A stretch of DNA of 34,136 bases, from positions 1 through 34,136 of IMG/VR virus record IMGVR_UViG_3300036716_000062; one strand, 5' to 3'. Source of the stretch: a virus. Both the position numbers and the translations under genes were made by a program. Each line of letters begins with the position of its first letter. Position 1 is the first letter of the stretch. The notes below the pieces were generated by a model, which did not search any database, was not told the DNA's origin, and was given only the letters and a program-made list of their open reading frames with translations. Positions 1,642-34,136 of the stretch are shown here, in pieces.

Positions 1642-1645
1642 ACCA

Positions 1646-1891: not shown

Positions 1892-1896
1892 AACTG

Positions 1897-1925: not shown

Positions 1926-1943
1926 AATTTTTAAGGATTTAAT

Positions 1944-2105: not shown

Positions 2106-2120
2106 AAGGTGAAGTTAATT

Positions 2121-2345: not shown

Positions 2346-2348
2346 CAA

Positions 2349-5489: not shown

Positions 5490-6553
5490 TGGGATTTTTT
5501 AGCAAGGTTTGGAAGGGTGTAAAGAAAGGTTTTAAAAAGATTGGTAAAGGTATCAAGAAAGGGTTTAAAGCTTTTGGTAAATTCATGGGTAAGATTGGTA
5601 TCTTAGGAACCATTGCTTTAACTATGCTTACAGGAGGGCTAGGTATAGGGAGTATGTTCGGTAACTTTGGAGCTACCTTAGGCAAACTTGGAGCTAGCAT
5701 GGGTGGGCCTTTAGGGGGTGTTTTAAAGGGTGCATCTTGGACTATTGGTAAAGCTGCACAGTTTGGTACTGCTGTTAAAAGTGGATTTCAAACATTAACT
5801 AAAGGTGTTACTGAGTTCTTTGGGCAGACTGCTAAGTATGTAGCTAACAAAATACCCGGTGTAAACATCCAAGGAGCACCTACTAGCTTCTTAGGAGAAG
5901 GTGGTGTTTGGCAGAATACTTCTGAAGCAGTTGTTAAACAGTTTGAAACTTTTAAAGGGGACGCAATAAATTTATTTAATACTACTTCACCTACTTTAGA
6001 AGCAGGTAAGCTAGCGGCTTCAGTAAGTAAAGAGGTAGGTACTTTAGGGGAGTACAACGCTTCAACAGGGGGCTTTGAATATAATGGACAAACATTAGAA
6101 GCTGCTGCTTCTGTGACTGACCCTACAGTACCTACTTTAACGCCAGATATTCCCGGTACAGCAGTAGATGATACAGTAACTGTAGGTACTGGCGGACTTG
6201 AAGATATAAGTGCTGGAATAGCTTCAACTGAAACTCCAAGTCTTTTAAGTAGAGCCTATGATTCTGCTAAAGATAATCTTTTTGAAGGAGTAACTAAAGC
6301 ACCGGGTGCAGTAGTCACCACTGCTCTTGTAAATAAAGCAATGGGTGTTGGAGAAGTTGATCCTTACTATGGCAGCACACCTGTAGCTCAGTTTGATTCC
6401 TCTTATGCTTTAGCAGGTGCAGTTGAACAAGGATTAACACAAGGCCCTGATCCTCTATGGAGTCAGCAGTTGTTTGATTATGATGCTTATGGTGGTGGTC
6501 AAGGTGGTTACAGTAATGTCTACGCTAACAGAATGCAAGGAGCTATGTCCTAA
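5489..6553 (+). CDS. Putative membrane-active internal virion protein (gp14-like position)
   Basis: The 354-aa product opens with a strongly cationic amphipathic stretch (residues 4-30: KVWKGVKKGFKKIGKGIKKG), followed by Gly-rich hydrophobic segments at about 36-60 and 65-85. The rest is Thr/Ala-rich with a Gly/Tyr-rich C-terminus. The N-terminus resembles membrane-permeabilising peptides. A channel-forming or membrane-contacting role during DNA ejection, analogous to T7 gp14, is inferred from this and from gene order, not from detectable homology. Start and stop codons overlap those of both neighbours (TAATG), indicating translational coupling. Confidence 0.7.
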   Translation: MGFFSKVWKGVKKGFKKIGKGIKKGFKAFGKFMGKIGILGTIALTMLTGGLGIGSMFGNFGATLGKLGASMGGPLGGVLKGASWTIGKAAQFGTAVKSGFQTLTKGVTEFFGQTAKYVANKIPGVNIQGAPTSFLGEGGVWQNTSEAVVKQFETFKGDAINLFNTTSPTLEAGKLAASVSKEVGTLGEYNASTGGFEYNGQTLEAAASVTDPTVPTLTPDIPGTAVDDTVTVGTGGLEDISAGIASTETPSLLSRAYDSAKDNLFEGVTKAPGAVVTTALVNKAMGVGEVDPYYGSTPVAQFDSSYALAGAVEQGLTQGPDPLWSQQLFDYDAYGGGQGGYSNVYANRMQGAMS

Positions 6554-7080
6554 TGGCTGAAACACAATATAATCCTGAAGAGATTGAAAATGTTTTCATG
6601 GAAAAGGCAGGTCAAATGGATAGACCTCTTCCCGGTGAGTCTTTAACTAATGATCCTGAGAATCCTCTACCCTTTGAAAAAGCTCCTGAGTATACAGACT
6701 TAACTACTGCTCTTGAGTATTACTTTGCAACTTTTACAGAAGAAGGTACATACGATAGAATACTTGAGTTAATAGCTAGTGGTACGCCACTTATGGATAT
6801 TACTCAGATGGTTCTTTATCAAGGATTTCAAGAAGGACTATTTAATCCTGACCTAATGATGCTTCTTGCAGAACCTATCACTTACATGCTTGCAGCTTTT
6901 GCTGAACAAGAAGGTATTGAGTTTATTATTCAAGAAGATGATGAAGAAGATATAGAGGAAGAAGAGGCTCAAAGTTTACCTATGATGAAGAAAGCATTAA
7001 AGCAAGTTAAGACAGTTGACAACCCTGAAGTAATGCCTGAACAGGTACAATCTTTGTTAGCGGCTAGAGGAGAACAGTAA
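6553..7080 (+). CDS. Conserved acidic phage virion-associated protein
   Basis: The 175-aa product is acidic. An N-terminal linker (NPLPFEKAPEYTDLTTALEY) leads to a helical domain (about 60-118: LMDITQMVLYQGFQEGLFNP, LLAEPITYMLAAFAEQ) and an Asp/Glu run (about 124-138: EDDEEDIEEEEAQ). The pattern of a 'PFEKPPQ'-like start and a 'GF.EGKFNPD'-like core is familiar from structural clusters of marine phages, but I know no assigned function. TAATG overlaps on both sides tie it into the internal-protein operon. A partner or chaperone for the cationic protein encoded just before it is a plausible inference. Confidence 0.7.
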   Translation: MAETQYNPEEIENVFMEKAGQMDRPLPGESLTNDPENPLPFEKAPEYTDLTTALEYYFATFTEEGTYDRILELIASGTPLMDITQMVLYQGFQEGLFNPDLMMLLAEPITYMLAAFAEQEGIEFIIQEDDEEDIEEEEAQSLPMMKKALKQVKTVDNPEVMPEQVQSLLAARGEQ

Positions 7081-9494: not shown

Positions 9495-12400
9495 ATGGCT
9501 GAACAACAAGATTACTTTGCTAAAGTTTATGCTGAATCTTCAGATGAAGACAAACAAGCTCTAGAACAAGGAGAGTCCTCATTCCTTAGAGAGCTTCAGT
9601 ATGGATTTGAAAAATCTACTTTTATGGGTGCTGATGCTGCTAGGCTTGCAGAAGCTTCTACAGGTGAAAGGACTATTCAAGAGATAGAGGCCGAAAGACT
9701 TGCTAAAATTAATGCAAAGTTTGGTGAGCTTTCTCAAGAGTCTAAAGAATCTTGGACTGCCTTTGGTGGAGAAATTATAGGTGAAGTAATTGATCCTACT
9801 TTGCTTGCTTTAGGCCCTGTTGGACTTGCCGCCAAAGGAGCTAAAATAGGGAAGCTAGGTCAAAGAGCTTATTCTACTGCTTACGGTGCAGGATTATTTG
9901 GCTCCGATGCAGCCTTAGAAATAGCAGCTAGAGGTGAAGATGTCACTGCTTCTGGTGTCGCACTAGCAACTATACTAGGAGGTGTAGGTGGTGCTTTTGT
10001 GAAACCCCTTGTGAAAGGTGGAGATGAAGTAGCTACTGGTGTTAAAACCGTACAACCTAGTAAGATTACTGAAAGTGAAGATATAGCAGTCAAAGAAATA
10101 CTTGCTGAAGTAGATGGTAGTAATCCTAGTCTTATTGGCGCACTTGAAGATGTTCCTAATATGGGAGCTAAAATAGCAGAGGCTACTGCTACACGACAAA
10201 GATATAGAGAAGAGTATGTTAAGTTTAAAGGTAAACAAGCTGGTGCTTTGTCAAAAGCAGAATTAGATGATCTTAGGTTAGCAAGAGATAAAGCAAAGTT
10301 GTTTACTCAAAGTTTACCTGAACAGATGCGTAAAAACTCTGAAATTATTTCAGATAGTTTAATAGAAACTACTGACAAATTAGCAAAGAATGGAATGCTA
10401 AATGGAAGTACTATAGGCAGAGTCCTTACTCGACCATTGTTAGGAGCAGGGATAGGGTATGGAGCGGGTGTTACTAATCAACTTGTATCTGAAGAAGATA
10501 CTGTGTCTCCTCTTGCTTTTATGACAGTAGGTCTTTTAGGCGGGCAGTTATCTAAGAAAATATTAAAAACAGATTACTCTACTAACGTCAAAGAAGAAGG
10601 CTTAAAGTCTTTACAGGACTTAAATAAAAACTTAGTAAAAGCACAAGTAAATGTACTGGGATCAGGAACTACTGCTGCAAGATTAAATTCTTTTGGTGGA
10701 GATGTATCTACTTTTGGTAAAACTTTACTAGCTCAACGTGGTGCAGACTTGAAAGGTGTTGCAACCGTTTCTGTAGAAGAAGCTAAAGACATTGCTATCC
10801 AAGACTTAACTAATGTATTTGATATACGAATGATGGAGTTAGGTGGATTAGGAGATGATTCTAAGGCTCTTAGAGAAGCAGCTTGGAAGTATGGTGAAAA
10901 GTTTGTAGATGAAGGTGACTTAGCTAATCAAGGCTTTAATAAGGCACAGATTGTAACTATAAAAGAAATTAGTGAGTCTTCTAAAGGTATTGTGAATACT
11001 GTTTCATCTGAAGCAGAGAGTGTTGGAATTAAATTTACAAAGTTAGAAGATTATGCTTTACCTCAGATGCACGATGCTAAAAAGATTTCCGATAATCGTG
11101 ATGCAGCTATAGTAGCATATGCTGATGCTTTCACAAAACAAAATATAGCCAAAACAAAAGAAGCTATGTTGTTGAAAGATCCTAAAGCAGATGTGTCTAA
11201 AGTAAAGATAAGTGAAAAGCAATTAGAAAGTTCTAAGGCTAGGGCTATTTCTTATGTGGATGAAATTATAAATTTAGGTTACTCAGGTAAAAGGTTAAAT
11301 ACTTGGAAGTCTAAAAGTGAGGGAGACTTAACTGATTTCAAATTAAGACTTACTCCTCTTTCAGATCATTTTGAAAAAGACAGGATATTCACAGATTTTG
11401 AAGCTCGTAAATCAATACAGGATTTTTTAGTTCAAGATGTAGCTGAAATTATTCCAGACTATGTTAGTAAATCAATGCCTAACATTGAGTTTGCAAGAGC
11501 CTTTGGAGCAAAAGGGGATGCCATTTTCCAGCTTAAAAGAAGCATACAGCTAGAGGCACAAGCTGGGAAGAAGGCTGCGGGGAGTGACGGTAAGTTATAT
11601 AAGTTAGCTGAGAAGGTTAGAGCTGAGAAAATAAAAAATATACATAACTCAGTAGATATGTATTTTGGAACATACGGTTCTCAATCTTCAAGGGCTACAA
11701 GTGAGGCTGCTACAAGCACACTGAGTCTTATGACTATGATGGGCAATATGACTATGCTTACTAAAGTAACCTTGGACAGTGTCGGTGACTTAGTTCAGCC
11801 TTTTGTTAATAGTGGCTTTAGTTCTTCTATGAGAGGTAAGGCACGAACTAATTCTAAAGAGTTAACAGATTTTGCGGAGAGTACAGGATTTGCAAAACGA
11901 GATGTGTTATCACAAGAACTACGTGCTTTGTCTCTTGATAAAAATACTGCGGGTTCTAAGGTTCAAAATTTTGCAGCAAAAACTAATGAGACGTTCTTTA
12001 AAGTTATCGGTCTTGGAAAGCTAACTTCTTATGCTAGAAGATTTGCTTACAACACAGGCATTGAAAATGCTTTTGATATAGCACAAGAGGTGACTGCTAA
12101 AGGCATGACTCAGACAGTGTTTAACAAAGCTAAAGCTTTAGGTCTTACTGATGACTATATACAAACTTTACAAAAGTTTAAGAATGTAGATGAAGCATTT
12201 GATGATAAGGACGGAAGAAGAATATTAAACATAGCAGGAATAAAGGCTTCAGATAGAGATGCTTTGATACCACAGGTAGGTAATAGACTAGGATTCTCTC
12301 AATCTAAAGACCCTTTGATACGCTCTCTTGGGCAGTTTTTATCATGGGCGCAAGCTAAAACTACACAGACAAATGCTCTTGTTCAGCGTATAGAAGATGG

Positions 12401-14891
12401 TGATGCTGCTTTAGCTGCAAGAGCTTTAGGTTCTTTGGTTGTTTATGATGGATTAATAACTCTCAAGCAATACTTTAACGATCCAACAGGTAAATACTTA
12501 GATGATGATGTAGACAGCTTTACAGAGAAACTAGTTACGAGGGAGCAGCTTGGTGCGTCTATTATGCAAGCGGGTGTCTCTCCTTACTATTTAAATAAAA
12601 TAGTAGCTATGGCAGCAAGACCTTACGGTTCTACAGTCTTCAGCAATCTTGCTCCTTCTATAAGTTTAATAGAAGATTATGCTAAGTTAGGGACAGCTAC
12701 AGTAAAGAACATTGAGCAAGGAGATGTGGAAGGTTTAGCTTTACAATACCTGCGAAGAGTTCCCGGCGGAAAAGAAGTAGAAGATATACTTGCTGCCACA
12801 GGTAATGAGTTAAAAGACAGAGGAGCTAAAGAAAAAGAAGCTCCTGCGGGGAGACTTACTACTCTAGGATTCAACAAAGGTGGTGAAGTCCTTGACGTAC
12901 CTAACGCCCCTGTGGAACCTGATCAACGCATTGATAAAATGACAGGTCAGCCTTATGATCAACAGGCTGGTACAGCTTTCGTAGATCAAGAAGATCCTCT
13001 GCGTAGGTTAGGCTTCAAAGGTGGTGGTGAGGTAGACCCTCTGTCTCGCCTTGGTTTTGGTATTGGTAGTTTAGTGTCTAAAGGTTTTGCAAAGCTTACT
13101 GGTAATACTGCTGACGCAAGTGATGATGTATTTAAGAAAGAGTTTGATGATCTTACAAAAGCAATTGATAAGGGTGAGACTCCAAAGATGTTTAAAGGTG
13201 TTCTTCCCGTGCAACATGCTTCATCTGAAAAATCTTTAAAAGAATTTATAGATCCTTCAGATGTAAAAGATTCTGCTCGTTATCCTGAAAATGAGTTTGG
13301 GAATAATGCTGTTTACTTTGGAGAAAAGAATAGTCCTTTTACAAATACTGAAGGTATGTATGGGTATGAGCCTTCTCCTTTTTTATATGATGTTGAAGCT
13401 AAATTTGATAATGCTTTCGTATTAACTCCTCAGAGTATAAAAGAGCTATCATCCCTAGTTCCTGAAAAACAAAGAAGGTTTGGCGGTAGTGTTGCTGATG
13501 TTCTAAAAAGTAAAGGATATGACGGATTAATTATAAGGGGTTTTGATAACTCAAATAAAACACAAAAAATAATTGATCAGGCGGAAAAGAAAGACAAGTT
13601 TTTTTACGGGATATTTCAAGATCAAGTTGTTTCTTTTGACCCTAAGAAAAATAAAATTTTAGGTGGCCCTGAGGTAAGAAAAGGATTTTCTGGAAGGGAT
13701 AGAGATATAGCTGCTAACATGACAGAGGAAGATATTTCAAAATGGCAAGAAGTCAATAAGCTTCCAGAAAGTAAGAGACAAAAGCAAAGACCTGAAATTA
13801 TTCAATCTCTTCAAAAAGTTTTGTCAGGAAATAAAAGTATAGAGGAACACAATAAACTAACAGACGAAGTTTTTCCTCCTTCTTTGTACACAAAAGATAA
13901 CGCACCTGAGTTTCCTACCTTAGTTGAAGTAAGAGGAGCAGTAGGAAAGAAAACTTTAACAGGTGGTAGAGGTATCATCGGGTCAGATGTTGATGTTGAG
14001 GAGGGACGTAGGGTGTCCTCTAGGTTAGACATTCCAGCTTATGATCAAAGAGGTGTGTGGGCTGTAACTTTGCATGAATTAGGGAAAGGTGGTAAAGCTT
14101 TTGCTTACGGTCAATCTGCAATACTTAAAAATGTAGATTTCACAACTGACCCAAAGGCTGCTTTGGACATTGCATTAGGACAAGCTAAGGGAACTATTGC
14201 TCGTATTGAAGGTGATTGGGTTAATCACAATCCAATAGAAACTTATCAACAGGCTCTAGACCTACTTGATAGTGATGAGTGGATTCAAGTAGGTATGAAT
14301 CCTTACAAGCACTCTTACTTTTATGACAAAGCCACAATGAAGCCTGTTAAGTCTGCATCAGAAGTTATTCAGGTAGGGCCTTTAGTACTAGCAAGAAAAG
14401 ACAAAGGCTTAGTGTACGCAGATGTAGAAGATTTTAATGTTGATCTTAGTCCTGAGAGTATCAAAGGGAAGAAGAAACTTAAAGATAATGATATAAACAT
14501 AAAGAGTGTTTCTTTCAATAGTGGCGGTAAAGTACTTAACGTACTGAAGAGGAAGCAGTATCAGAAAGGCTCTGAAGTACGCAGCGACATGCGGAGGTCT
14601 GATGGATCTACTAAATCAGCACGGGGTTACTTAGGGCCTATTAAAAACAACGTAGATGGTGGCACCATGACTGAGTTTGCTACTAACTGGGAAGATGCTG
14701 GTATAGAAATACCAACTATGGTTCCAACTTTGTCCAAGGAAGAAATAAAATATATGCAAAACATGAAGCCGGGGCAAGGATGGAATGTTAAAGAAAATCC
14801 TATAGATAAACAAATAATAAACAAGGCCCGTGAACATGCTCGTATGCGGATAGATCAAGGGAAGAGTCCTTTCTATCAGGATGGAGAATAA
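9495..14891 (+). CDS. Giant polyvalent virion protein with ADP-ribosyltransferase-like domain (gp16-like position)
   Basis: The product is 1798 aa. Residues about 90-170 contain Gly/Ala-rich hydrophobic stretches (LLALGPVGLAAKGAKIG, VALATILGGVGGAFVK), and the middle (about 200-1100) is a long helical region. Links of KGGEV type occur near 1128 and 1175. Residues about 1236-1390 look like the ART domain of phage polyvalent proteins: QHASSEKSLKEF, then NNAVYFGE, KGYDGLIIRG and DQVVSFDPKKNKIL. About 1505-1650 matches a large polyvalent-protein-associated domain (SSRLDIPAYDQRG, VWAVTLHEL, GMNPYKHSYFYD, EVIQVGPLVLA). The last 100 residues (RSDGSTKSARGYLGP to SPFYQDGE) are a recurring phage C-terminal module. 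Ejection into the host with the DNA is inferred from T7-like order. No transglycosylase motif was found. Confidence 0.75.
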   Translation: MAEQQDYFAKVYAESSDEDKQALEQGESSFLRELQYGFEKSTFMGADAARLAEASTGERTIQEIEAERLAKINAKFGELSQESKESWTAFGGEIIGEVIDPTLLALGPVGLAAKGAKIGKLGQRAYSTAYGAGLFGSDAALEIAARGEDVTASGVALATILGGVGGAFVKPLVKGGDEVATGVKTVQPSKITESEDIAVKEILAEVDGSNPSLIGALEDVPNMGAKIAEATATRQRYREEYVKFKGKQAGALSKAELDDLRLARDKAKLFTQSLPEQMRKNSEIISDSLIETTDKLAKNGMLNGSTIGRVLTRPLLGAGIGYGAGVTNQLVSEEDTVSPLAFMTVGLLGGQLSKKILKTDYSTNVKEEGLKSLQDLNKNLVKAQVNVLGSGTTAARLNSFGGDVSTFGKTLLAQRGADLKGVATVSVEEAKDIAIQDLTNVFDIRMMELGGLGDDSKALREAAWKYGEKFVDEGDLANQGFNKAQIVTIKEISESSKGIVNTVSSEAESVGIKFTKLEDYALPQMHDAKKISDNRDAAIVAYADAFTKQNIAKTKEAMLLKDPKADVSKVKISEKQLESSKARAISYVDEIINLGYSGKRLNTWKSKSEGDLTDFKLRLTPLSDHFEKDRIFTDFEARKSIQDFLVQDVAEIIPDYVSKSMPNIEFARAFGAKGDAIFQLKRSIQLEAQAGKKAAGSDGKLYKLAEKVRAEKIKNIHNSVDMYFGTYGSQSSRATSEAATSTLSLMTMMGNMTMLTKVTLDSVGDLVQPFVNSGFSSSMRGKARTNSKELTDFAESTGFAKRDVLSQELRALSLDKNTAGSKVQNFAAKTNETFFKVIGLGKLTSYARRFAYNTGIENAFDIAQEVTAKGMTQTVFNKAKALGLTDDYIQTLQKFKNVDEAFDDKDGRRILNIAGIKASDRDALIPQVGNRLGFSQSKDPLIRSLGQFLSWAQAKTTQTNALVQRIEDGDAALAARALGSLVVYDGLITLKQYFNDPTGKYLDDDVDSFTEKLVTREQLGASIMQAGVSPYYLNKIVAMAARPYGSTVFSNLAPSISLIEDYAKLGTATVKNIEQGDVEGLALQYLRRVPGGKEVEDILAATGNELKDRGAKEKEAPAGRLTTLGFNKGGEVLDVPNAPVEPDQRIDKMTGQPYDQQAGTAFVDQEDPLRRLGFKGGGEVDPLSRLGFGIGSLVSKGFAKLTGNTADASDDVFKKEFDDLTKAIDKGETPKMFKGVLPVQHASSEKSLKEFIDPSDVKDSARYPENEFGNNAVYFGEKNSPFTNTEGMYGYEPSPFLYDVEAKFDNAFVLTPQSIKELSSLVPEKQRRFGGSVADVLKSKGYDGLIIRGFDNSNKTQKIIDQAEKKDKFFYGIFQDQVVSFDPKKNKILGGPEVRKGFSGRDRDIAANMTEEDISKWQEVNKLPESKRQKQRPEIIQSLQKVLSGNKSIEEHNKLTDEVFPPSLYTKDNAPEFPTLVEVRGAVGKKTLTGGRGIIGSDVDVEEGRRVSSRLDIPAYDQRGVWAVTLHELGKGGKAFAYGQSAILKNVDFTTDPKAALDIALGQAKGTIARIEGDWVNHNPIETYQQALDLLDSDEWIQVGMNPYKHSYFYDKATMKPVKSASEVIQVGPLVLARKDKGLVYADVEDFNVDLSPESIKGKKKLKDNDINIKSVSFNSGGKVLNVLKRKQYQKGSEVRSDMRRSDGSTKSARGYLGPIKNNVDGGTMTEFATNWEDAGIEIPTMVPTLSKEEIKYMQNMKPGQGWNVKENPIDKQIINKAREHARMRIDQGKSPFYQDGE

Positions 14892-14892
14892 G

Positions 14893-15261
14893 ATGTATAA
14901 GTATTTCAAAGACTCAGAACTAATCTGCAAACACTGTGAAGGTGAAGGTATTGACCCAGCATTTATGCAGAAAGTAGATAAGCTGCGTGGTGACTTAGGT
15001 TTCTCCTTCCCAGTAACCTCTGCATACAGATGTAAAGACCATCCTATAGAGGCCCGTAAAGCCTCTCCCGGTGCTCATGAATCAGGCAGGGCCTTGGATA
15101 TAGGTGTACGTGGTAAACAGGCTTACAAGCTAGTACAGGCTGCTCTAGAGGCAGGTTTTACAGGCATTGGTATAGCTCAGAAGGGAGGCTCTAGATTTAT
15201 ACACATAGATGACCTACCAGACAGTGAAGGAAGACCAAGACCACACATATGGAGTTACTAG
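14893..15261 (+). CDS. Endolysin, peptidase M15 family (L,D- or D-Ala carboxypeptidase type)
   Basis: I take ATG 14893, which has GGAG 6 nt upstream; an in-frame ATG at 14881 inside the previous gene would add four residues. The product is 122 aa, the usual size for single-domain M15 lysins. Metal-site motifs are SPGAHESGRALDIGV (His-x6-Asp) and FIHIDD (second His), with the conserved SAYRC before them. The family cleaves peptide cross-links of peptidoglycan using zinc. No signal peptide is visible, so release through the holin encoded next is expected. It is followed directly by the holin at 15262. Confidence 0.85.
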   Translation: MYKYFKDSELICKHCEGEGIDPAFMQKVDKLRGDLGFSFPVTSAYRCKDHPIEARKASPGAHESGRALDIGVRGKQAYKLVQAALEAGFTGIGIAQKGGSRFIHIDDLPDSEGRPRPHIWSY

Positions 15262-15654
15262 ATGAGTATAGTTGCAAGCTTAGTAGGCCCTGTCACTGGA
15301 CTACTAGATAAGTTTATAGAGGACAAGGATCAGAAGAATGCTTTGGCCCATGAGATAGCTACAATTTCTGAGAAACATGCACAGGAGTTAGCTAAAGGAC
15401 AACTAGAAGTAAACAAAGTAGAAGCAGCACACTCTAACATTTTTGTTTCGGGTTGGAGGCCGTTTATTGGCTGGACATGCGGACTAGGAATGTTTGGTAA
15501 CTTCATTACAATTCCATTTTCTAACTTTGTATTAGCTCTTGTAGGGTATGACATTGTTATACCTCTTGTACCTTTAGAAACTATGATGCCAGTGCTTATG
15601 GGTATGCTAGGTTTAGGTGCTATGAGGTCATTTGAAAAGACTCGTCCTAAATGA
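15262..15654 (+). CDS. Holin, 3TM family
   Basis: The product is 130 aa. A charged helical N-terminus (residues 1-60, IEDKDQKNALAHEIATISEK) is followed by the family signature SGWRPFIGW, then hydrophobic segments at about 68-95 and 98-122 and a short basic tail (EKTRPK). This matches the phage 'holin of 3TMs' family, which forms lesions in the inner membrane to release endolysin. The ATG follows the endolysin stop directly, and its TGA overlaps the next start (ATGA). Membrane topology (two versus three passes) is not settled by eye. Confidence 0.85.
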   Translation: MSIVASLVGPVTGLLDKFIEDKDQKNALAHEIATISEKHAQELAKGQLEVNKVEAAHSNIFVSGWRPFIGWTCGLGMFGNFITIPFSNFVLALVGYDIVIPLVPLETMMPVLMGMLGLGAMRSFEKTRPK

Positions 15655-16103
15655 TTGCTGAGATAAGTGCAATTGTTGCAGGTGTTAACATGGCTACGTC
15701 TGCTATTAAGCAAGCAGCAGGTGCCGCAGATGACTTGTCTACTATAGGAGTCTTTCTAGGTAAGTTAGGAGGCGCAGAGGTAGAGCTTGCTAAGGCTCAG
15801 AATGCCGGTGGATTATCTGAAGCTGATGCTATCAAAGCTGCATTAGCTCGTAAACAAATTGCAGACACTATGCAAGAAGTTAAAGATTTATTTACAATGT
15901 CTGGTAACGGACATCTGTACCAACAGTGTATGCAAGAGATGGCGAATGCGAGAAAGGCTAAACAAGATGAGCTTGCAAGACTTGCACTACTTAAAAAGAA
16001 ACGTAACAAAGAGCTACGTCAGCTAGGAATGATAGTGCTATTATGTTTAGCACTAGTACCCGCAGTAGTGGGTGGTATTATTTTTATGTTAACAAATAGG
16101 TAA
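15651..16103 (+). CDS. C-terminally membrane-anchored helical protein of the lysis cassette
   Basis: The 150-aa product has an Ala-rich helical body (residues 1-105), a basic stretch (LLKKKRNKELRQ, about 111-124) and one membrane segment near the C-terminus (about 125-147, LGMIVLLCLALVPAVVGGII). It is start-stop coupled to the holin (ATGA). Position and one membrane anchor would suit a lysis accessory such as a spanin-like or holin-antagonist protein, but it lacks a lipobox and the usual i-spanin order, so I leave the function open. Confidence 0.7.
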   Translation: MIAEISAIVAGVNMATSAIKQAAGAADDLSTIGVFLGKLGGAEVELAKAQNAGGLSEADAIKAALARKQIADTMQEVKDLFTMSGNGHLYQQCMQEMANARKAKQDELARLALLKKKRNKELRQLGMIVLLCLALVPAVVGGIIFMLTNR

Positions 16104-16106
16104 AAC

Positions 16107-16295
16107 ATGGCAGCTAAAAAGAAAACTAAATCTAAAGTAAATGAGGCAGGTAATTATACTAAGCCTACTATGAGAAAAAACTTGTTTAATAAGATCAAAG
16201 CAGGGACTAAGGGTGGTAAGGCTGGTCAGTGGTCAGCACGTAAAGCTCAGATGCTTGCTAAAGAATATAAAGCTAAAGGTGGTGGGTACAAGTAA
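16107..16295 (+). CDS. Small lysine-rich phage protein
   Basis: The 62-aa product is very basic (MAAKKKTKSKVNEAGNYTKP; end GQWSARKAQMLAKEYKAKGG). It is the first of three consecutive lysine-rich small proteins, and TAATG couples it to the next. The KAGQWSARKAQ.LAK.YK pattern is familiar from marine phages but has no known function. Charge suggests binding to nucleic acid or packaging inside the head. Confidence 0.7.
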   Translation: MAAKKKTKSKVNEAGNYTKPTMRKNLFNKIKAGTKGGKAGQWSARKAQMLAKEYKAKGGGYK

Positions 16296-16549
16296 TGGCA
16301 CTCAAGAAATCTCAGAAGTCTTTAAAGAAGTGGACTAAGGAAAAATGGGGAACTAAGTCAGGTAAACCATCAACACAAGGAGGCAAGGCAACAGGTGAAA
16401 GGTATCTCCCGAAGAAGGCTAGAGAGGCTTTATCAGCAAAGGAGTACGCTGCTACTTCCAAAAAGAAAAGAGAAGACACAAAGAAAGGAAAGCAGCACAG
16501 TAAACAACCCAAAAAGATTGCAAAGAAAACAGCGAGGCACCGCAAATGA
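16295..16549 (+). CDS. DUF5872-like lysine-rich protein
   Basis: The 84-aa product is highly basic. The core GERYLPKKAREALSAKEYAA preceded by KWTKEKWGTKSGKPS matches the DUF5872 pattern seen in marine phages and some host genomes. No catalytic residues are apparent. The C-terminus (KGKQHSKQPKKIAKKTARHR) is almost all Lys/Arg/His. It overlaps the next gene by 4 bp (ATGA). DNA or RNA binding is inferred from charge only. Confidence 0.75.
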   Translation: MALKKSQKSLKKWTKEKWGTKSGKPSTQGGKATGERYLPKKAREALSAKEYAATSKKKREDTKKGKQHSKQPKKIAKKTARHRK

Positions 16550-16869
16550 TGGATAGAGAAGAGTATAAGAAGGGTGGTAAGACTAAGAAGAAAGACCCAC
16601 GCTTAGAACGTGCGGGTGTTAGTGGGTACAACAAGCCCAAGAGAACTCCAAAGCATCCAAAGAAGTCTCATGTTGTTGTTGCTAAAGAAGGTGACAAAAT
16701 TAAAACAATTAGGTTTGGTGAGCAAGGTGCTAGTACGGCAGGAAAGCCAAAGGCAGGAGAGTCAGCTAGAATGAAAGCAAAGCGTAAAAGCTTTAAAGCA
16801 AGACACGCTAAGAACATTAAGAAAGGTAAGATGAGTGCAGCTTATTGGGCTGATAGGGCCAAGTGGTAG
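16546..16869 (+). CDS. DUF6321-like basic protein
   Basis: The 107-aa product contains GVSGYNKPKRTPKHPKKSHV, a VVVAKEGDKIKTIRFGEQG beta-rich core, and KSFKARHAKNIKKGKMSAAY ending WADRAKW. This matches the DUF6321 pattern common in marine phages. The N-terminus holds a KKGGKTKK stretch. Two ATGs in a row (16546, 16549) are possible starts; the first overlaps the upstream TGA. Function is unknown in the family. Confidence 0.8.
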   Translation: MMDREEYKKGGKTKKKDPRLERAGVSGYNKPKRTPKHPKKSHVVVAKEGDKIKTIRFGEQGASTAGKPKAGESARMKAKRKSFKARHAKNIKKGKMSAAYWADRAKW

Positions 16870-17081
16870 CTCTAGTATCGCCCTCAGTATCATCCTCTAG
16901 TGTGTTGTTGAACAGCTATGTTAATACACAGACTAAGCAGGAAGTTACTAATGACAACGGTAATAAGACAGCCACTATAGATACTACTATTTATAGGACT
17001 GTCTTTTACCAATATGCTAACGGTACTGTAAGTACTCACAATGTTAGCAATAGTTCAAGGACTATTAACCTTTTAGTTTAA
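16863..17081 (+). CDS. Small Ser/Thr/Asn-rich protein, end of rightward arm
   Basis: The 72-aa product begins with GTG inside the end of the upstream gene. It is rich in Ser, Thr, Asn and Val (TKQEVTNDNGNKTATIDTTI) and would form beta strands, like a minor structural or decoration protein. There is no membrane segment or motif. It is the last rightward gene, and its stop lies 9 bp inside the convergent gene at 17073. Tight coupling supports it as real; function is unknown. Confidence 0.6.
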   Translation: MVALVSPSVSSSSVLLNSYVNTQTKQEVTNDNGNKTATIDTTIYRTVFYQYANGTVSTHNVSNSSRTINLLV

Positions 17082-17282: not shown

Positions 17283-18241
17283 GCGAAGCTCACCTTGTTA
17301 ACATCACCACGCATACCAGCCTTCATGTATGTAGTAGCTCTACCTTCAAAGAAGTTCTGATGCTCTACACCTAGTACATCATCTAACCAGTTCAAAGGAT
17401 TATCTTTGATATTGTAGTTAGGCTTTAGTCCTAGTTGCAGTAAGCGTCTGTCTGCAATATACCTAATGTACTTTTGCATCTCAGCCTTGGTCAATCCTTC
17501 AATGTTACCCTGCTCAAACACTAGGTCTAGAAATCTATCTTCTAGATCTACCATCTCTCTACAAGCTTGGTAAATCTCAGCCTTGAAGTCATCGTCCCAG
17601 ATCTCTATGTTCTCTTGAATGAATTCCCTAAACAACTTGGTCATAGCTTCTACGTGTAGTGACTCATCTCTAATACTGTAAGTAATGATCTGACCCATAC
17701 CCTTCATCTTACCGAACCGTGGAAAGTTCAACAGTATTATAAAACTTGAGAATAGTTGAAGACCTTCAGTAAAACCAGAGTACACAGCAAGTGCTTTAGC
17801 AATGCTTCTCTTATCGCCCTTAGCGACCTTTACAGAGTCAATGTACTCATGCTTCGCTGCCATAGCCTCGTAGTCTGCAAACGCCTTGTACTCAACCTCA
17901 GGCATTCCTACGGTGTCTAGTAGTAGGCTGTAGGCGTGTTGGTGTATGGACTCCATGTTGTTAAAGGAACCCATCATCATCCGGGCTTCAGGCTTCTTAA
18001 AGATCTTCATGTATCTATCTACATAACCAGAGCTAACATCTACATCTGATTGTGTGAACAGTCTGAAGATCTGTGTAAGAAGGTTCTTCTCTTCAGAGGT
18101 CATAGTCTGCCAATCTTTTACATCATTGTGCAGTGGTACATCTTCAGGGAACCAGTGCATTTGATTCTGCTGTGAGTAATAGTCGAACATCCAAGGATGG
18201 TCAAACGGTTTATAATAATCTCTTGTTCCTAGTAGGCTCAT
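17279..18241 (-). CDS. nrdB: Ribonucleotide reductase class Ia small subunit
   Basis: The 320-aa product has the usual phage NrdB length. Iron ligands and radical site are visible: D66 or D68 region, E97-x2-H100 (MESIHQHAY) with the radical Tyr at 104, a later Glu in FTEGLQLFSSF, and E-x2-H in RDESLHVEAM. It supplies the tyrosyl radical to NrdA for making dNDPs. It lies two thirds of a kb from nrdA, separated by a MazG-like gene and three small genes, and overlaps the gene before it by 4 bp (ATGA-type). The C-terminal tail (KVSFA) may dock to NrdA. Confidence 0.95.
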   Translation of the reverse strand: MSLLGTRDYYKPFDHPWMFDYYSQQNQMHWFPEDVPLHNDVKDWQTMTSEEKNLLTQIFRLFTQSDVDVSSGYVDRYMKIFKKPEARMMMGSFNNMESIHQHAYSLLLDTVGMPEVEYKAFADYEAMAAKHEYIDSVKVAKGDKRSIAKALAVYSGFTEGLQLFSSFIILLNFPRFGKMKGMGQIITYSIRDESLHVEAMTKLFREFIQENIEIWDDDFKAEIYQACREMVDLEDRFLDLVFEQGNIEGLTKAEMQKYIRYIADRRLLQLGLKPNYNIKDNPLNWLDDVLGVEHQNFFEGRATTYMKAGMRGDVNKVSFA

Positions 18242-18543
18242 GCTACATCTCCCTCTTTAATAAATATACCTTCACTGTTCATGTGGCCCTTGCGATCTTT
18301 GATGTCATCGTAGGCGACCTCTAAGCACCGCTCTAAGGATGTATCAAACATGATAGCCAGTGTATTAAGTACCACCAAGCAATCGCCTATATCGTCCTCT
18401 ACGCTGCGCTGCTTTGCTATGTTATCCCCTAGCTCACCTACCTCAGACACTAGCTTTGCAAACTGTGCCAACGGTGTGCTGTTGTTTATGATACCTCTAG
18501 ACATACTCCAAAGGTTTATCTTGTGTATCAAATCTTCATTCAT
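18238..18543 (-). CDS. MazG-like nucleotide pyrophosphohydrolase
   Basis: The product is 101 aa. The motif SEVGELGDN followed about 15 residues later by VEDDIGDCLVVL fits the ExxE...ExxD metal site of all-alpha NTP pyrophosphatases. These enzymes hydrolyse (d)NTPs or alarmone-type nucleotides. Position between nrdB and nrdA points to nucleotide-pool management. The protein is shorter than full MazG, as is common in phages. Substrate is not predictable from sequence. Confidence 0.8.
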   Translation of the reverse strand: MNEDLIHKINLWSMSRGIINNSTPLAQFAKLVSEVGELGDNIAKQRSVEDDIGDCLVVLNTLAIMFDTSLERCLEVAYDDIKDRKGHMNSEGIFIKEGDVA

Positions 18544-18760
18544 ACTCTAGTCCCTGTACGTTTGCATTCAGTAGAGCTATTTTAAATAACTCTACGATGT
18601 ACAAAAGCTCTTTGTTGTCCAACGCACTAGAAGCTCTAGCCGTTAGGTTATCATCTTCATCCCAACCCAACACCAGTAGATCTGCATACTGATCTTTACA
18701 AAGCTCTAGTATCTCATTGGCAGTGGCTTGAGGAGGGTTCATGTGTACTATATTACTCAT
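18536..18760 (-). CDS. Small hypothetical protein between nrdA and nrdB
   Basis: The 74-aa product is mostly helical, with ANEILELCKDQYADLLVLGW followed by DEDDNLTARASS. It overlaps both neighbours by 8 bp. The pattern of a central hydrophobic beta strand (LLVLGWDEDD) and a helix recurs in small phage proteins, but I do not recognise a family. Confidence 0.6.
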   Translation of the reverse strand: MSNIVHMNPPQATANEILELCKDQYADLLVLGWDEDDNLTARASSALDNKELLYIVELFKIALLNANVQGLEYE

Positions 18761-22498: not shown

Positions 22499-23361
22499 TT
22501 TATAAAAATCTCCTGAACATTTGGTGTGGATGTGACTCTTGTGAAGTACTTAATACCATTAGAATATTTAAAAGCTCTCAAGCCTTTGCCGTTGTTGGCA
22601 TCTGACCAGCATTGATTCTTAAAGCCACAGTAGGAACAACCAGAACCGAGACGTAGGTTACCTTTCTTTCCTTCCACTACAGGTTCGTAGCATCTTTCAG
22701 GAGGAGTGTCTGACTCTAAGTTATTTTTTAGAGTCTCTATTCTAGTGTTGACATTGGGTTTTGTCAAGCCTCCGGGCCTAAATAAAGCAAGTTCTCCTGT
22801 CTCTTTGTTGATAGCAAGGAAGCCACCGTTGTCTGTACCCTCTGCTGCTTCATACCCTGCAAGCTGATACATGTAACCAAAGGGATCATCATGGTAGAGA
22901 CTACCTTCTTTGAACTTTTTGAAGCCGAAGTTAGATGCAGTCTTAACGTCAACAACTTCTCCGTTTATCTTACAGTCCATGTGACCTTTGATACCATCTA
23001 CTTTAACTTCTTTCTGCTCATCAGTTACCTCATGTCCTGCTAGCTTCACAAGTAGTAAGAGCAACTCTTCAAGAAGATGTCCGTACAGAAACTTAATATG
23101 GGTAGACCCTTTCAAGGGAGGTGCAGGTGTGTCGCTCTTTTGTTCGTACCATAACTGTCTAGATGGCTTGCCTATGTTGCTCATGCGTAGTCCCTTAGAC
23201 TGCTTGTGCGGTTCAGTCCAATGAACAAGGGCAGACTTCATGCGTTCTCCGAAGTCATGTATAAGATCATCTGAGATGTCTATTTGTTTACCATCTGATA
23301 ACACTTCAATCATCTTGTAGATGTCAGGTACTAGGTTGTCTAAGTTTTTAGAAGAGTTCAA
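22495..23361 (-). CDS. PD-(D/E)XK nuclease, Cas4/RecB-like, with Cys cluster
   Basis: The product is 288 aa. The start is TTG 23361, supported by AAGGAG 6 nt upstream. The nuclease core reads GHLLEELLLLL (helix with Glu), GIKGHMDCKI (metal Asp) and EVVDVKTAS (D-x-K), then a Gln-Tyr-type helix (YMYQLAGYEAA). C-terminal cysteines RCYEP and GCSYCGFKNQCW suggest a metal or Fe-S cluster, as in Cas4 and AddB. Phage members act as 5'-3' exonucleases in recombination or host-DNA breakdown. It lies between endonuclease I and the GIY-YIG gene. Confidence 0.85.
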   Translation of the reverse strand: MNSSKNLDNLVPDIYKMIEVLSDGKQIDISDDLIHDFGERMKSALVHWTEPHKQSKGLRMSNIGKPSRQLWYEQKSDTPAPPLKGSTHIKFLYGHLLEELLLLLVKLAGHEVTDEQKEVKVDGIKGHMDCKINGEVVDVKTASNFGFKKFKEGSLYHDDPFGYMYQLAGYEAAEGTDNGGFLAINKETGELALFRPGGLTKPNVNTRIETLKNNLESDTPPERCYEPVVEGKKGNLRLGSGCSYCGFKNQCWSDANNGKGLRAFKYSNGIKYFTRVTSTPNVQEIFIK

Positions 23362-23929
23362 ACTGTGCTCCTTCCGTGTTAAAATGTTTATTTAAAATAG
23401 TTTCTGCTACAACAGTAGAGCAAACAAACCATTCACCTTTACGTTCATGCTTCTGTGATAGAAGTTCGTGGGCTTCTGCTTCTGATTTTCTTCTGTCACT
23501 AACAGGGTAGCAAGCATGTACTCTATAGTCTCTGTAAGGTGATCCTGTTTGATACTGTTTGAGTCTGTCCTTAGAGTCAATAGCCATTCCTACCTTTACC
23601 CAGCTAGGGAAGGAGGGGCTGTATATAATATACACCTCACCTTCTAAGCTTTGCTCATAGTTAGATAAAGAACTAAACGCCGCGTCTGTAAAGCCTCCGT
23701 AATATCCGGGCTTGTGTAGTGGATGTGCTTTTGGGACATACTTACCATTCACATACATTTTTCCTGTGTTAGTCCTTCTGGATGTAGCACGATGACACTC
23801 TAAGCACCTGTATTTTTTTTGTCTTTGATTTGACTGAGGCCAGTTTTTATCTGCAACTAACTCTTGGCTACAATCTAAACAAAGTTTAGTGGGTTTCTGC
23901 CCAGTTGTTCCCGGCATTATACTCTCCAT
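23348..23929 (-). CDS. GIY-YIG (T5orf172-like) nuclease with N-terminal zinc motif
   Basis: The product is 193 aa. Residues about 16-52 hold a CLDC...CLEC pair likely to bind zinc. Residues about 97-180 are a GIY-YIG fold of the T5orf172/Mug113 type: EVYIIYSPSFPSWVKVGMAI, DRLKQYQTGSP (catalytic Arg region), SEAEAHELL (Glu) and GEWFVCS. Such proteins are often free-standing homing or DNA-cleaving enzymes. It overlaps the DNA polymerase 3' end by 44 bp and the Cas4-like gene by 14 bp. Insertion next to polA-type genes is typical of homing nucleases; targeting is unknown. Confidence 0.85.
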   Translation of the reverse strand: MESIMPGTTGQKPTKLCLDCSQELVADKNWPQSNQRQKKYRCLECHRATSRRTNTGKMYVNGKYVPKAHPLHKPGYYGGFTDAAFSSLSNYEQSLEGEVYIIYSPSFPSWVKVGMAIDSKDRLKQYQTGSPYRDYRVHACYPVSDRRKSEAEAHELLSQKHERKGEWFVCSTVVAETILNKHFNTEGAQFELF

Positions 23930-31001: not shown

Positions 31002-31076
31002 TGGAGAGGAAGGAGGGAATCGAACCCTCGTAAATGGAGTTGCAGTCCATTACATAAGCCACTCTGTCACTTCCTC
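31002..31076 (-). tRNA. tRNA-Cys (anticodon GCA), CCA encoded
   Basis: The minus strand folds as a cloverleaf. The acceptor arms GAGGAAG and CTTCCTC pair over 7 bp, the anticodon stem ATGGA/TCCAT flanks loop CTGCAAC, and the T-arm is GAGGG-TTCGATT-CCCTC. Base 73 is T, the identity base for Cys-tRNA synthetase, and CCA follows in the DNA. The 75-nt length matches bacterial tRNA-Cys, including the short D-loop form. It is the only tRNA seen, set among early leftward genes. Confidence 0.95.
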
Positions 31077-31117: not shown

Positions 31118-31834
31118 CTATGCTGCTTGAGCCAAAGGTATAAGGTTCACATCTACAACAAAACCATTGTCGTTCTCTTTGGCTGGGCCTTTCTCTGTTA
31201 GACCCACAACCACCTTACCTGCCTTGACATTGAACAGGTCAGATTGATCACCATCTATAACCTTACGCCCCATAAACTCTGTGGGCATCTTGCCTCTGAA
31301 CACCACAGCCATAGGTACATCAGACTCCATCCCTATAGCTACCTGCTTACGGTACTGTGGCCTACCACTATATGAGAACATCAACTTGTAATTAGAGGGT
31401 GTTTTGCCTAGACGTATGGCCCGTTTGGTATAGTCATAGAAGAACAGATCAGGAAAATCCTGAGGTATGCTATGATCTTCCCACGGTATATCAGATAGCA
31501 CATTGAGCCTGACCACACCCTGCACACCCTGCTTTGCACATAACTTAGTGAAGTTAGTTAACTCCCTTCGCAATTGTACTAAGAATCCTTCCTGATCAGA
31601 ATGCCAGTAGTCGGTCTTTGCTTGTCTTGCCTCATTTACAGAGTCATACACCGCAGCCAGTCCTGCCTCTTTTAAACAGAAATCCATGCACCCAGCAGCC
31701 TTAGCCCCAGCACATAGAATATTATCAGGCATCATTGATAGTTGTGCCATACGCACCGCACCTTTGCTTTTCTTGCCTGTCTTTGCCACCTTAGTGTTAC
31801 CACTTTTCTTGGCTGTATCTAATAACTTACCCAT
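31118..31834 (-). CDS. Gp88-like conserved phage protein
   Basis: The start is placed at ATG 31834, which has GGAG about 8 nt upstream and overlaps the stop of the preceding 51-aa gene; a GTG at 31906 would add 24 residues that merely overlap that gene. The product is 238 aa. It matches the mycobacteriophage gp88 family pattern: MPDNILCAGAKAAGCMDFCL (Cys cluster), GVVRLNVLSDIPWED, FPDLFFYDYTKR and NYKLMFSYSG. The family has no proven function. The cysteines suggest a metal site. Confidence 0.8.
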   Translation of the reverse strand: MGKLLDTAKKSGNTKVAKTGKKSKGAVRMAQLSMMPDNILCAGAKAAGCMDFCLKEAGLAAVYDSVNEARQAKTDYWHSDQEGFLVQLRRELTNFTKLCAKQGVQGVVRLNVLSDIPWEDHSIPQDFPDLFFYDYTKRAIRLGKTPSNYKLMFSYSGRPQYRKQVAIGMESDVPMAVVFRGKMPTEFMGRKVIDGDQSDLFNVKAGKVVVGLTEKGPAKENDNGFVVDVNLIPLAQAA

Positions 31835-31982
31835 GCGCTTGTCTCCATTCAACTCTGCGTACACGTTCCTCTTCACACCTTTGAAACAATCTACCTGCCC
31901 TAGCACGGATACACTCTTGGCTAAACTCCAATAGCTGTGAGTCCGATACTGCCTTTAATTTTGTGAGCACTTCACTAGTCAT
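31827..31982 (-). CDS. 51-aa charged protein
   Basis: It encodes MTSEVLTKLKAVSDSQLLEF, SQECIRARAGRLFQRCEEER and VRRVEWRQAHG, a charged helix ending basic. AGGG precedes the ATG. Its stop overlaps the Gp88 start (ATGGGTAA), so the two are coupled. Function is unknown. Confidence 0.6.
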   Translation of the reverse strand: MTSEVLTKLKAVSDSQLLEFSQECIRARAGRLFQRCEEERVRRVEWRQAHG

Positions 31983-32211: not shown

Positions 32212-32243
32212 AGTTTTACCCTATGTTGGTTTAAGATTTTGCC

Positions 32244-32823
32244 CTTATAGATAGTATCGGTTTTGTTTTAGTTACGCTGCCTTGTGTGCTGCTTCGTGTG
32301 CTGCTAACTCTGCCTCAATTATTGCCGCCAGCCTATCGTTAAAGGTATTCCTTCTTGCCTTACCTTCTTCTACTGACTTACCCCAGCCAGCCATCATTGC
32401 TTTTGCTTTTAGGAGTAGATCCATATCTGGCTTTGCTACCCCAACTTTGTCGAAATCATACCAGTTGCTTTCTACTTCTTTAACTTCAATTGCGCCCTTT
32501 CCAATTTTCTTAACTACAAATCCGACCCCATCCTTAACTGGCGTGAATTTTACGTTTGCATGTTCCTTAATAAACTCTTTCAAAGTTTGCGAACGGATAC
32601 TTTTCATTTTGATACTAGCGTTAACTAGCATCTCAATGCGTGAAGTATCGCCATGCTGTCCATAAGTCTCAATAGCAGACACGGCCAAAGCTTGCACGTT
32701 ATCGCGCATTGTTGACTCATTAGCTACCACGTTATCTAACATCATTTTGAAATATACAGTTTTCATAATTTACCCTTCGATTTTTAAATTTTAATTTTGA
32801 TTCTTTCCGATACTATCTATAAG
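32244..32823. repeat. Perfect 17-bp inverted repeat flanking one early gene
   Basis: CTTATAGATAGTATCGG at 32244-32260 recurs as its exact reverse complement at 32807-32823. The pair encloses only the 164-aa gene, its 5' leader and 11 bp of 3' sequence (546 bp between arms). The right arm starts immediately after the U-tract of the terminator at 32827. Confidence 0.9.
32272..32766 (-). CDS. Putative early protein inside inverted repeats
   Basis: The 164-aa product is mixed helical and charged (MKTVYFKMMLDNVVANESTM; core FTPVKDGVGFVVKKIGKGAI; end Ala/His-rich EAELAAHEAAHKAA). No domain is recognised. An AAGGG ribosome site lies about 7 nt before the ATG. It is the first gene of the leftward arm, 41 bp downstream of the right repeat arm and 61 bp from the terminator that isolates it from the right-end transcript. 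First-expressed phage genes often target the host, but that is only positional inference. Confidence 0.7.
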   Translation of the reverse strand: MKTVYFKMMLDNVVANESTMRDNVQALAVSAIETYGQHGDTSRIEMLVNASIKMKSIRSQTLKEFIKEHANVKFTPVKDGVGFVVKKIGKGAIEVKEVESNWYDFDKVGVAKPDMDLLLKAKAMMAGWGKSVEEGKARRNTFNDRLAAIIEAELAAHEAAHKAA

Positions 32824-32826
32824 AAC

Positions 32827-32901
32827 AAAAAAACCCCACGAATTATAAGACAATCGCTTAACCTAATAGGCTTTGCGATTACCCGATAACTCGATGGGGT
32901 T
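32827..32901 (-). terminator. Very long hairpin intrinsic terminator
   Basis: On the minus strand AACCCCA and CGAGTTAT pair with ATAATTCG and TGGGGTT (15 bp, one bulged base, one G-U). Then come an internal loop, AATCGC/GCGATT (6 bp), and a terminal CCTATTAGG hairpin. Seven T residues end the structure (32827-32833). It would stop leftward transcripts from the right-end region before the gene at 32766. Confidence 0.85.
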
Positions 32902-33420
32902 ATTGTTCAAATAATTTTAACTAGTTGCCATCCTAATACTATGGGGATGCCATATTCACAAACCAAACGCTGACCGCTTGGCAATCTCTAATACTTTCGC
33001 ATGGATCTATTTTAATTTGTAGTGCTTGCGCTTTTGACTGTTTGATCAATCACTCGTTAACAAAATCTAAAACTCAGATTTTGAACATATAGCTAATGCT
33101 AGTTTTTTCGCATAGGTAAACCTAGTGGCGTGTCGCTTGTTACTCTCGAATTGCTCGTTAAAACAAAACGAGAGAATCAAAAAACTACTAACGCAAGTTA
33201 CAAAAAATTGTGCCGTTCTCTCTAAAGATACCTATCAATTTCAAATTAGAGTGCATGGGGTTTTGCCGTCTCCGCGATTGTTAACTTAAAATCAGTTCCC
33301 GCTCTAATTGTACGTTTCTTGTACCTGATCAAATTTTGCCAGTTTTTTACGGGGAGAGCTTAATCAAACTTGCGCCCCGACCGCCATACTTCGTGGCGAT
33401 GGGAGAACGTTATAGAATCT
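32827..33420 (-). ncRNA. Candidate large structured non-coding RNA
   Basis: About 590 nt have no reading frame longer than roughly 25 codons on the minus strand, many paired segments and a strong terminator at the 3' end. Stems (minus strand) include CGCCA/TGGCG (33382-33398), CGGGG/CCCCG (33349-33380), AATTAGAG/CTCTAATT (33244-33309), CTCTCG/CGAGAG with the competing CTCGTT/AACGAG (33144-33175), the perfect CAAAATCT/AGATTTTG (33061-33083), and an AGTATTAG direct repeat near 32932-32995. Purpose is unknown; the 5' end and promoter are not located. It could instead be an untranslated control region. Confidence 0.5.
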
Positions 33421-33494
33421 TATTTAAAATAGCAAACATTTGTAACTATCAATAAATGATATTCGATAGATAAAATCAATTGGACATAGGAAAG

Positions 33495-33514
33495 TACTGT
33501 ATAGATGTACAGTA
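33495..33514. promoter_or_regulatory. Operator-like palindrome, copy 1
   Basis: TACTGTATAGATGTACAGTA has arms TACTGTA and TACAGTA around a 6-bp centre, a typical dimeric repressor site. A second copy lies at 33701. The 9-bp AACTAACAT (33528-33536) follows downstream. Confidence 0.55.
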
Positions 33515-33700
33515 AATAGTGGTATGCAACTAACATGCCAAGTGCTATTTTCACTTTTTCTCCACTATTGGAAGGCGTACAGGAAGGCATCAAAACGTGG
33601 ATCTAAGGTAGGGTTTAGGAAACAGATAGCACACTGTCAGTAAATATATGGGGGTTTAGATGGGAGTATTGGAAGGATTAGAATATGTATATATGTACAG

Positions 33701-33720
33701 TACTGGATAGATTTACAGTA
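33701..33720. promoter_or_regulatory. Operator-like palindrome, copy 2
   Basis: TACTGGATAGATTTACAGTA matches copy 1 at 18 of 20 positions. It is preceded by GTACAGTAC (33695-33703), followed 11 bp later by the promoter candidate at 33731, and then by AACTAACAT (33759-33767), as with copy 1. Confidence 0.55.
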
Positions 33721-33730
33721 GTTTAAATCT

Positions 33731-33761
33731 TTGGAATTGTTGAGTATTTGGAATATATAAC
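33731..33761 (+). promoter_or_regulatory. Weak rightward promoter candidate
   Basis: TTGGAA (33731-33736), 17 bp, and TATATA (33754-33759), overlapping TATAAC, give a partial sigma70 match. It would fire rightward out of the window. It lies beside operator-like copy 2. Confidence 0.3.
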
Positions 33762-33787
33762 TAACATTGGCACGCTATTTGCATGTA

Positions 33788-33829
33788 TTTTAAATATTGT
33801 AAATCTATTCCTATTGGGAATATTTAAAA
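33788..33829. repeat. AT-rich 11-bp inverted repeat
   Basis: TTTTAAATATT (33788-33798) is the exact reverse complement of AATATTTAAAA (33819-33829), with 20 bp between. A related AATATTTAAAATATTG follows at 33858-33873. It could be an easily melted or structure-forming element beside the iteron-like repeats. Confidence 0.6.
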
Positions 33830-33868
33830 GTCCGGTATGGAATAGGTACAAATTCCAAATATTTAAAA

Positions 33869-33990
33869 TATTGTAAATAAGAATCTTTCTCATTTGCAAA
33901 TGGTAGTGCTAATCTTAATCGTATTGTAAATAAGAATCGTTTGCATTCGCATTTGCATTTGAGAATATTAACAATATTGAGAATAAGAAT
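33869..33990. repeat. 53-bp-period iteron-like direct repeats
   Basis: TATTGTAAATAAGAATC is identical at 33869-33885 and 33922-33938, and a third diverged copy (TATTGAGAATAAGAAT) starts at 33975. The spacing is 53 bp both times. GCATTC/GCATTT hexamers fill the second and third units. Resembles replication-initiator binding arrays. Confidence 0.7.
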
Positions 33991-34006
33991 GATTCGCATT
34001 CGCATT

Positions 34007-34046
34007 GGATGGGCCGGGCAGGTGGCCATGGGGGTAGGGGGTGGTA
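34007..34046. other. G-rich block with quadruplex potential
   Basis: Within AT-rich DNA the plus strand has four G-runs (34011-34013, 34016-34018, 34030-34034, 34037-34041) with loops CC, an 11-base loop and TA. It immediately follows the third iteron-like repeat. Confidence 0.55.
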
Positions 34047-34136
34047 GTAATACAATCATCTACATTTTGCACTATTTTAAAATTGTAAAGCTTACCACCC
34101 AATACTTATAAATATTCAGAATATTGCGCTCACCTT

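Follow-up and report, generated by a model that had tools for sequence, protein, structure and literature searches.

A predicted conserved structured noncoding RNA, possibly also an attenuated leader, precedes the first early gene of a marine Zobellviridae-like virus

The window, that is, the whole stretch of DNA analysed in this study, is a virus record of 34,136 bases (IMGVR_UViG_3300036716_000062) from a marine bacterial virus, a Zobellviridae-like podovirus. Its rightward genes, among them those for the tail spike and the virion proteins, occupy positions 1 to 17,081, and its leftward genes, among them those for primase/helicase, DNA polymerase and ribonucleotide reductase, run from 32,766 down to 17,279. 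A longer contig that is identical to the window (L002) carries terS and terL, which point away on the far side of the noncoding region. Because of this divergence, the region forms the divide at which the leftward arm of the genome parts from the rightward one. As seen on L002, about 1.57 kb (roughly 1.6 kb) between gp1 and the divergent terS is noncoding. No ORF of at least 60 aa was found on either strand from 32767 to 33800, and the longest minus-strand ORFs within the stretch are of 36-37 aa; a protein-coding reading was rejected for lack of a sizeable ORF. The original prediction had described about 590 bp without a gene in a phage where genes otherwise overlap. The stretch is indeed gene-free, but the gap is larger than was thought, and gaps of 60-100 bp are also present elsewhere near the same window end. 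The features of the region are as follows.

33768 to 33783, plus strand: divergent sigma-54-type promoter toward terS/terL, TGGCACGCTATTTGCA, kept in L002, L003 and L004
33525 to 33540, minus strand: sigma-54-type -24/-12 promoter, TGGCATGTTAGTTGCA, exact consensus, predicted start about 33513
33495 to 33514, no strand assigned: LexA-box-like palindrome, TACTGTATAGATGTACAGTA, 18 of 20 consensus positions, CTGT-N8-ACAG
32827 to 33402, minus strand: conserved structured noncoding RNA, long type (no gene, conservation against L004, no Rfam match)
33382 to 33398, minus strand: 5' hairpin CGCCAC..TATGGCG, in the window, L004, L003 and L015
32986 to 33004, minus strand: start of the 3' domain, CCATGCGAAAGTATTAGAG, invariant in four contigs
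32823 to 32908, minus strand: long intrinsic terminator, U7 at 32833-32827; the RNA is proposed to end here, and the terminator to act as an attenuator
32807 to 32830, minus strand: first arm of a 24-bp stem, beginning in the U tract
32272 to 32766, minus strand: gp1, a basic protein of 164 aa, first early gene (ICP2 p27 / RIO-1 gp1 family; PHROG 14737 and 1448)
32237 to 32260, minus strand: second arm of the 24-bp stem, starting 11 nt past the gp1 stop, in all four contigs

The locus was found in L002 and in three further virus contigs (L004, L003 and L015). The RNA of L004 is of the long type, as in the window, and those of L003 and L015 are of a short type of about 350 nt. The two types have the 5' hairpin, the 3' domain and the terminator in common, whereas their middles show no similarity, that is, they have been replaced. 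The profile match of the 3' domain between the types gave E values of 1e-23 to 1e-24. A search for further contigs with the long or the short interior added none. A nucleotide search of 50,697 phage records gave no match to the RNA, the short type obtaining only a chance match of 25 nt, and bacterial genomes contained neither a gp1 homologue nor an exact match to the 3' domain. In the phage records, bacterial genomes and contigs searched, homologous RNA sequence was found in these four contigs only.

The RNA bodies of the window and L004 were aligned over 557 nt, with 96.6% identity (19 differences) and no indels. The noncoding flanks of the same two contigs are mostly 54-78% identical, with many indels, and 6 of the 43 fourfold sites of gp1 differ (14%). 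That is, the divergence of the RNA body is 4 times lower than that of the gp1 fourfold sites (19/557 versus 6/43, p = 0.006). Thirteen of the 19 changes fall at the 215 unpaired positions and 6 at the 342 paired positions (p = 0.007), with the fold predicted from the same two sequences. All 6 changes at paired positions keep the pairing, including a double change at 33005/32985 from U-A to C-G.

The body outside the 3' domain has too little variation for covariation analysis. In the alignment of the 3' domain and terminator from the four contigs, two-sided changes were found at 10 of 52 pairs, as compared to 6.3 in shuffles, and 4 of 500 shuffles reached 10. The pairing was kept in 96% of the paired cells, as compared to 36-49% when the alignment was slid. 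Within the main stem of the terminator, 7 pairs are altered on both sides among the four contigs, and the consensus fold of the 3' domain and terminator had a z value of -8.3 against column shuffles. The homologues showed no protein-like conservation, and their compensatory changes bear out the earlier proposal of a large, leftward, structured noncoding RNA ending near 32827.

A leftward terminator of exceptional length with 7 T had also been predicted, and this was found to be correct. The terminator forms a single hairpin of -41.8 kcal/mol, and it shows a stable stem, kept by covariation, and then a U run. A generic terminator scan did not detect it, probably because it is long and bulged. 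The minus-strand fold as a whole has an energy of -169.6 kcal/mol, with a z value of -4.6 against shuffles (-4.3 in a second run), which becomes -2.1 once the terminator is removed; for the plus strand, of which the stem is followed by no T run, z was -3.75. Fold energy by itself is thus weak evidence for the RNA body, and it is the comparative evidence, taken from the sequences, that carries the case for the RNA. As for the internal stems, CTCTCG/CGAGAG and CTCGTT/AACGAG had been expected to exclude each other and to allow switching. They are mutually exclusive, but the former together with its inner stem has -13.3 kcal/mol and the hairpin of the latter -5.4 kcal/mol, so that nothing suggests switching, and a switch was rejected on energy.

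A comparison with 4227 Rfam families (introns, riboswitches, RNase P and others) gave a tRNA as the sole match in the window, and the relaxed threshold gave chance matches only. At gathering score, neither the GOLLD nor the ROOL covariance model matched the window or 8 related loci, and at E up to 10 neither matched within 32600-34136. The suggested connection with these families is thus not supported. The tRNA, a tRNA-Cys on the same minus strand at 31002-31076, had been noticed at about 1.8 kb from the RNA; it lies 1.75 kb downstream, but a special relation to the RNA found no support. Taken together, the comparative results indicate that the observed element is real, conserved and uncatalogued. 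Our confidence in the sequence conservation, the terminator and the 3' domain is firm, and that in a discrete RNA with an attenuator role is moderate.

The RNA nevertheless resembles several known systems in part. With GOLLD, a large noncoding RNA of phages, it has in common a constant 3' part and a variable 5' part (PMC12286853), the 3' domain being common to both types and the middle exchanged; this is a resemblance and not a membership. It differs from GOLLD in being shorter and in heading an early operon, whereas GOLLD lies in a tRNA island. ROOL is likewise phage-borne and of similar length (ROOL env-120 has 659 nt; PMC12286853), but its genome context is different. The phage ICP1 produces an abundant noncoding RNA of about 800 nt of unknown role (PMC7567579). 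That transcript, like ours, is large, occupies a gene-free gap and belongs to a phage of a marine host, but the phage is of another family, the transcript precedes the lysis cluster, and the likeness is one of description. Attenuators and antitermination leaders such as HK022 put and lambda nut are also structured untranslated RNAs with a terminator between a promoter and the first early gene; the RNA of the window is much longer, and its clade lacks nut- or boxA-like elements.

Sigma-54 promoters require an energy-dependent activator. Scanning the 34-kb window with the consensus TGGCAYRNNNNTTGCW (GG-N10-GC spacing) gave exactly 2 matches, both in the noncoding divide, where 0.05 were expected. 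The leftward site is kept in L002, L003, L004 and L015. Exact sites are confined to the equivalent region in 172P1, 1.208.B, 275E43-1, PQ867850 and the L033 contig, and 1.293.O has one site in that region and one elsewhere. RIO-1, HP1, KZY1 and ICP2 have no consensus site, and sigma-70-type promoters precede their leaders. A reversed control pattern gave zero matches in every record scanned. The sites are therefore like RpoN promoters in matching the consensus exactly, but they differ in belonging to phages without an activator gene of their own: none of 16 phage records encodes an enhancer-binding activator (PF00158), and use of sigma-54 would for this reason require a host activator. We regard the sites, on their sequence, as candidate promoters that host RpoN may use. 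Searches of the open-access literature gave no report of sigma-54-type promoters driving a phage; a putative sigma-54-like protein was described in a Pectobacterium phage (PMC7693777).

By the rule that transcription starts 19 bp from the motif centre (PMC4591121), the predicted start is about 33513, at the edge of the LexA-box-like palindrome, and the RNA including the leader from this start would be about 690 nt. The palindrome is kept in L003 and L004 and absent in L015, and a similar site lies at the start in PQ867850; it could serve as an operator or fold as a 5' hairpin of the RNA. In L015, an ORF of 64 aa (10524-10718, minus strand) lies between the promoter and the RNA. A consensus sigma-70 promoter toward gp1 is located further upstream (L002 2034-2062), and a near-consensus sigma-70 promoter facing the opposite way is found just outside the window. 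Between the terminator and gp1 no good sigma-70 promoter was recognised, which supports read-through into gp1. The part upstream of the RNA (33690-34020) is dense in short repeats and palindromes (TACTGTACAT.., AAATGAGAATATTCTC.., ATTTACAATATT). Equivalent repeat-rich parts are present in L003 (1430-1530) and L004 (1480-1630), and the number of repeats varies between the relatives. This region is possibly an origin or an activator-binding array.

Homologues of gp1 are present as an early gene in members of the Zobellviridae, namely RIO-1, HP1, KZY1, ICP2 and the Vibrio phages 172P1, 1.208.B and 1.293.O. Searches of Pfam, PDB sequences and PDB folds gave nothing significant, and a fold model of middling quality (pLDDT 68) matched only uncharacterised phage proteins. 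The protein is basic in every clade (pI 8.4-9.7), and it is thus plausible that gp1 binds its own leader RNA. The 24-bp stem around gp1 is free of mismatches. In 4 of 4 contigs it is kept, where its pairs are either unchanged or altered to G-U, with one double change. Its score was 24, as compared to at most 14 in shuffles. The covariation count (1 pair) is not significant alone, and it is the length and retention of the stem in these sequences that support it. Since the arms differ and yet stay complementary as RNA, we read the stem as an RNA element, most simply a putative ribonuclease III processing site. A search around gp1 in the other clades showed that they lack such a stem.

Every gp1 homologue examined has a noncoding leader of 0.4-1.0 kb upstream, barring a doubtful small ORF, p26, of ICP2. 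The annotation of ICP2 includes p26 and that of JPW does not, which makes the length of the ICP2 leader uncertain. The consensus folds of the leaders had z values against column shuffles of -6.0 for Melvirus, -5.4 for the Vibrio phages and -3.7 for ICP2, and the counts of two-sided changes in these sets were near the shuffled maximum. The leaders of RIO-1, HP1, KZY1, ICP2, 172P1 and 1.293.O thus resemble the RNA of the window in position, length range and folds conserved within clades, but they differ from it in sequence, and some have sigma-70 promoters instead. Comparison of leader profiles clade against clade showed no sequence homology across clades, so that the leaders may either be a single RNA that evolves fast or have been invented separately at the same place. 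The words CGGGTAA and ATAAAC, common to leaders, were dropped as unconvincing. The U tracts after the last hairpin are weaker or missing in the other clades, and attenuation may therefore be special to the window clade. BoxA ([CT]GCTCTT) is absent in the window, L003, L004 and L015 and present in 172P1 and 1.208.B only; TTGCTCTTTAATAATT in these two leaders (L016, about 2800, and L024, about 815) is near the boxA antitermination signal of rRNA operons. A gene for an RNA chaperone with a ProQ/FinO domain lies a few genes past the leader in 1.293.O (L039, 45845-46243) and 275E43-1 (L025, 3489-3887). Searches of the open-access literature turned up no earlier account of a leader of this kind in Zobellviridae.

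On balance, we think it somewhat probable that the locus makes a discrete noncoding RNA and that this RNA also serves the early operon as an attenuated leader. In this model, the minus strand between about 33513 and 32827 would give a noncoding structured RNA of 0.6-0.7 kb heading the early leftward unit, transcribed from the sigma-54-type promoter just upstream and from the consensus sigma-70 promoter farther up. Many polymerases would stop at the long terminator and release the discrete RNA, of which it would be the 3' end. The remaining polymerases would pass it into gp1 and the early operon, so that the terminator would double as an attenuator. On read-through, the 24-bp stem would fold around the gp1 message and could be processed there. 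Beyond serving as a leader, the RNA body may have a further role, perhaps in concert with the basic gp1. This explanation is supported by the low divergence, the pair-keeping changes and the two-sided changes of the 3' domain; by the retention of the terminator in both RNA types while the middle was exchanged; by the sigma-54-type site heading the RNA in 4 of 4 contigs; and by the leaders at the same place in other Zobellviridae, with conserved pairing in the clades tested. It is weakened by the z value of only -2.1 without the terminator and by the limitation of homologues to four contigs. A long structured leader was the second reading of the original prediction, and it fits the fixed position before gp1.

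If the RNA were instead purely trans-acting, it would be a free-standing ornate RNA like GOLLD or ROOL (e.g., a homo-oligomer) without control of gp1, which would have its own unrecognised promoter. Its size, its strong sequence conservation, its own terminator, the GOLLD-like arrangement of constant and variable parts (PMC12286853) and the precedent of ICP1 (PMC7567579) agree with such an RNA, but throughout the Zobellviridae the leader keeps its place ahead of gp1, which points to a link with this gene, and no promoter is recognisable after the terminator. We therefore consider a purely trans-acting RNA rather unlikely. A little less likely again, in our view, is a purely cis-acting leader that serves antitermination or attenuation, in the manner of put RNA or of a regulatory leader, and is never a separate RNA. 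It would account for the fixed place of the leader ahead of the early operon, for the terminal hairpin before gp1 of which the sequence is changed and the pairing kept in several clades, and for the rrn-like boxA that 172P1 and 1.208.B have in their leaders; however, 557 nt at 96.6% identity exceed the needs of an attenuator, and the window clade has no boxA. The repeats and palindromes of the AT-rich upstream part and the location at the divide between the two arms would suit a DNA-level element (a replication origin or packaging region) with RNA folds as by-products, but the repeats fall outside the conserved block, and the two-sided pair changes, G-U intermediates and strand-specific U tract are RNA-like, which makes this quite improbable. 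Recent exchange of a mosaic module, and not selection on the RNA, as the cause of the high identity between the window and L004 is more improbable still, since in spite of the occurrence of the long type in two contigs only and the strong mosaicism around the RNA, the changes fall preferentially at unpaired sites, the four contigs show covariation in the 3' domain, and folds are conserved in other clades.

We speculate, with considerable doubt, that a large RNA conserved in position and fast in diversification heads the early operon as a trait of the Zobellviridae and works with the basic gp1 in host takeover, and that several lineages drive this RNA (and the window clade its rightward arm too) from host sigma-54 promoters, so that a host activator would have a hold on the phage cycle. 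Large structured RNAs of phages have long been puzzling, since their jobs are unknown. The positional counterparts in cultured phages (RIO-1, HP1 and the Vibrio phages) lie beside a conserved gene, which makes the role genetically testable. Independently of the RNA, the sigma-54-type promoters are also unexpected, and their need of an activator would couple the phage cycle to the physiology of the host.

Some minor observations were also made. In PQ867850 (L038), regions 2 and 4 of sigma-70 are encoded on two different proteins (7216-7983 and 18084-18557), which looks like a split phage sigma factor. In L004, unrelated sequence takes the place of the minus-strand gene that lies at 31118-31906 of the window, between gp1 and the tRNA, although the adjoining tRNA-Cys is nearly identical. 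Finally, the minus-strand gene at 23348-23929, which has a T5orf172/MUG113 (GIY-YIG nuclease-like) domain, adjoins the polymerase gene.
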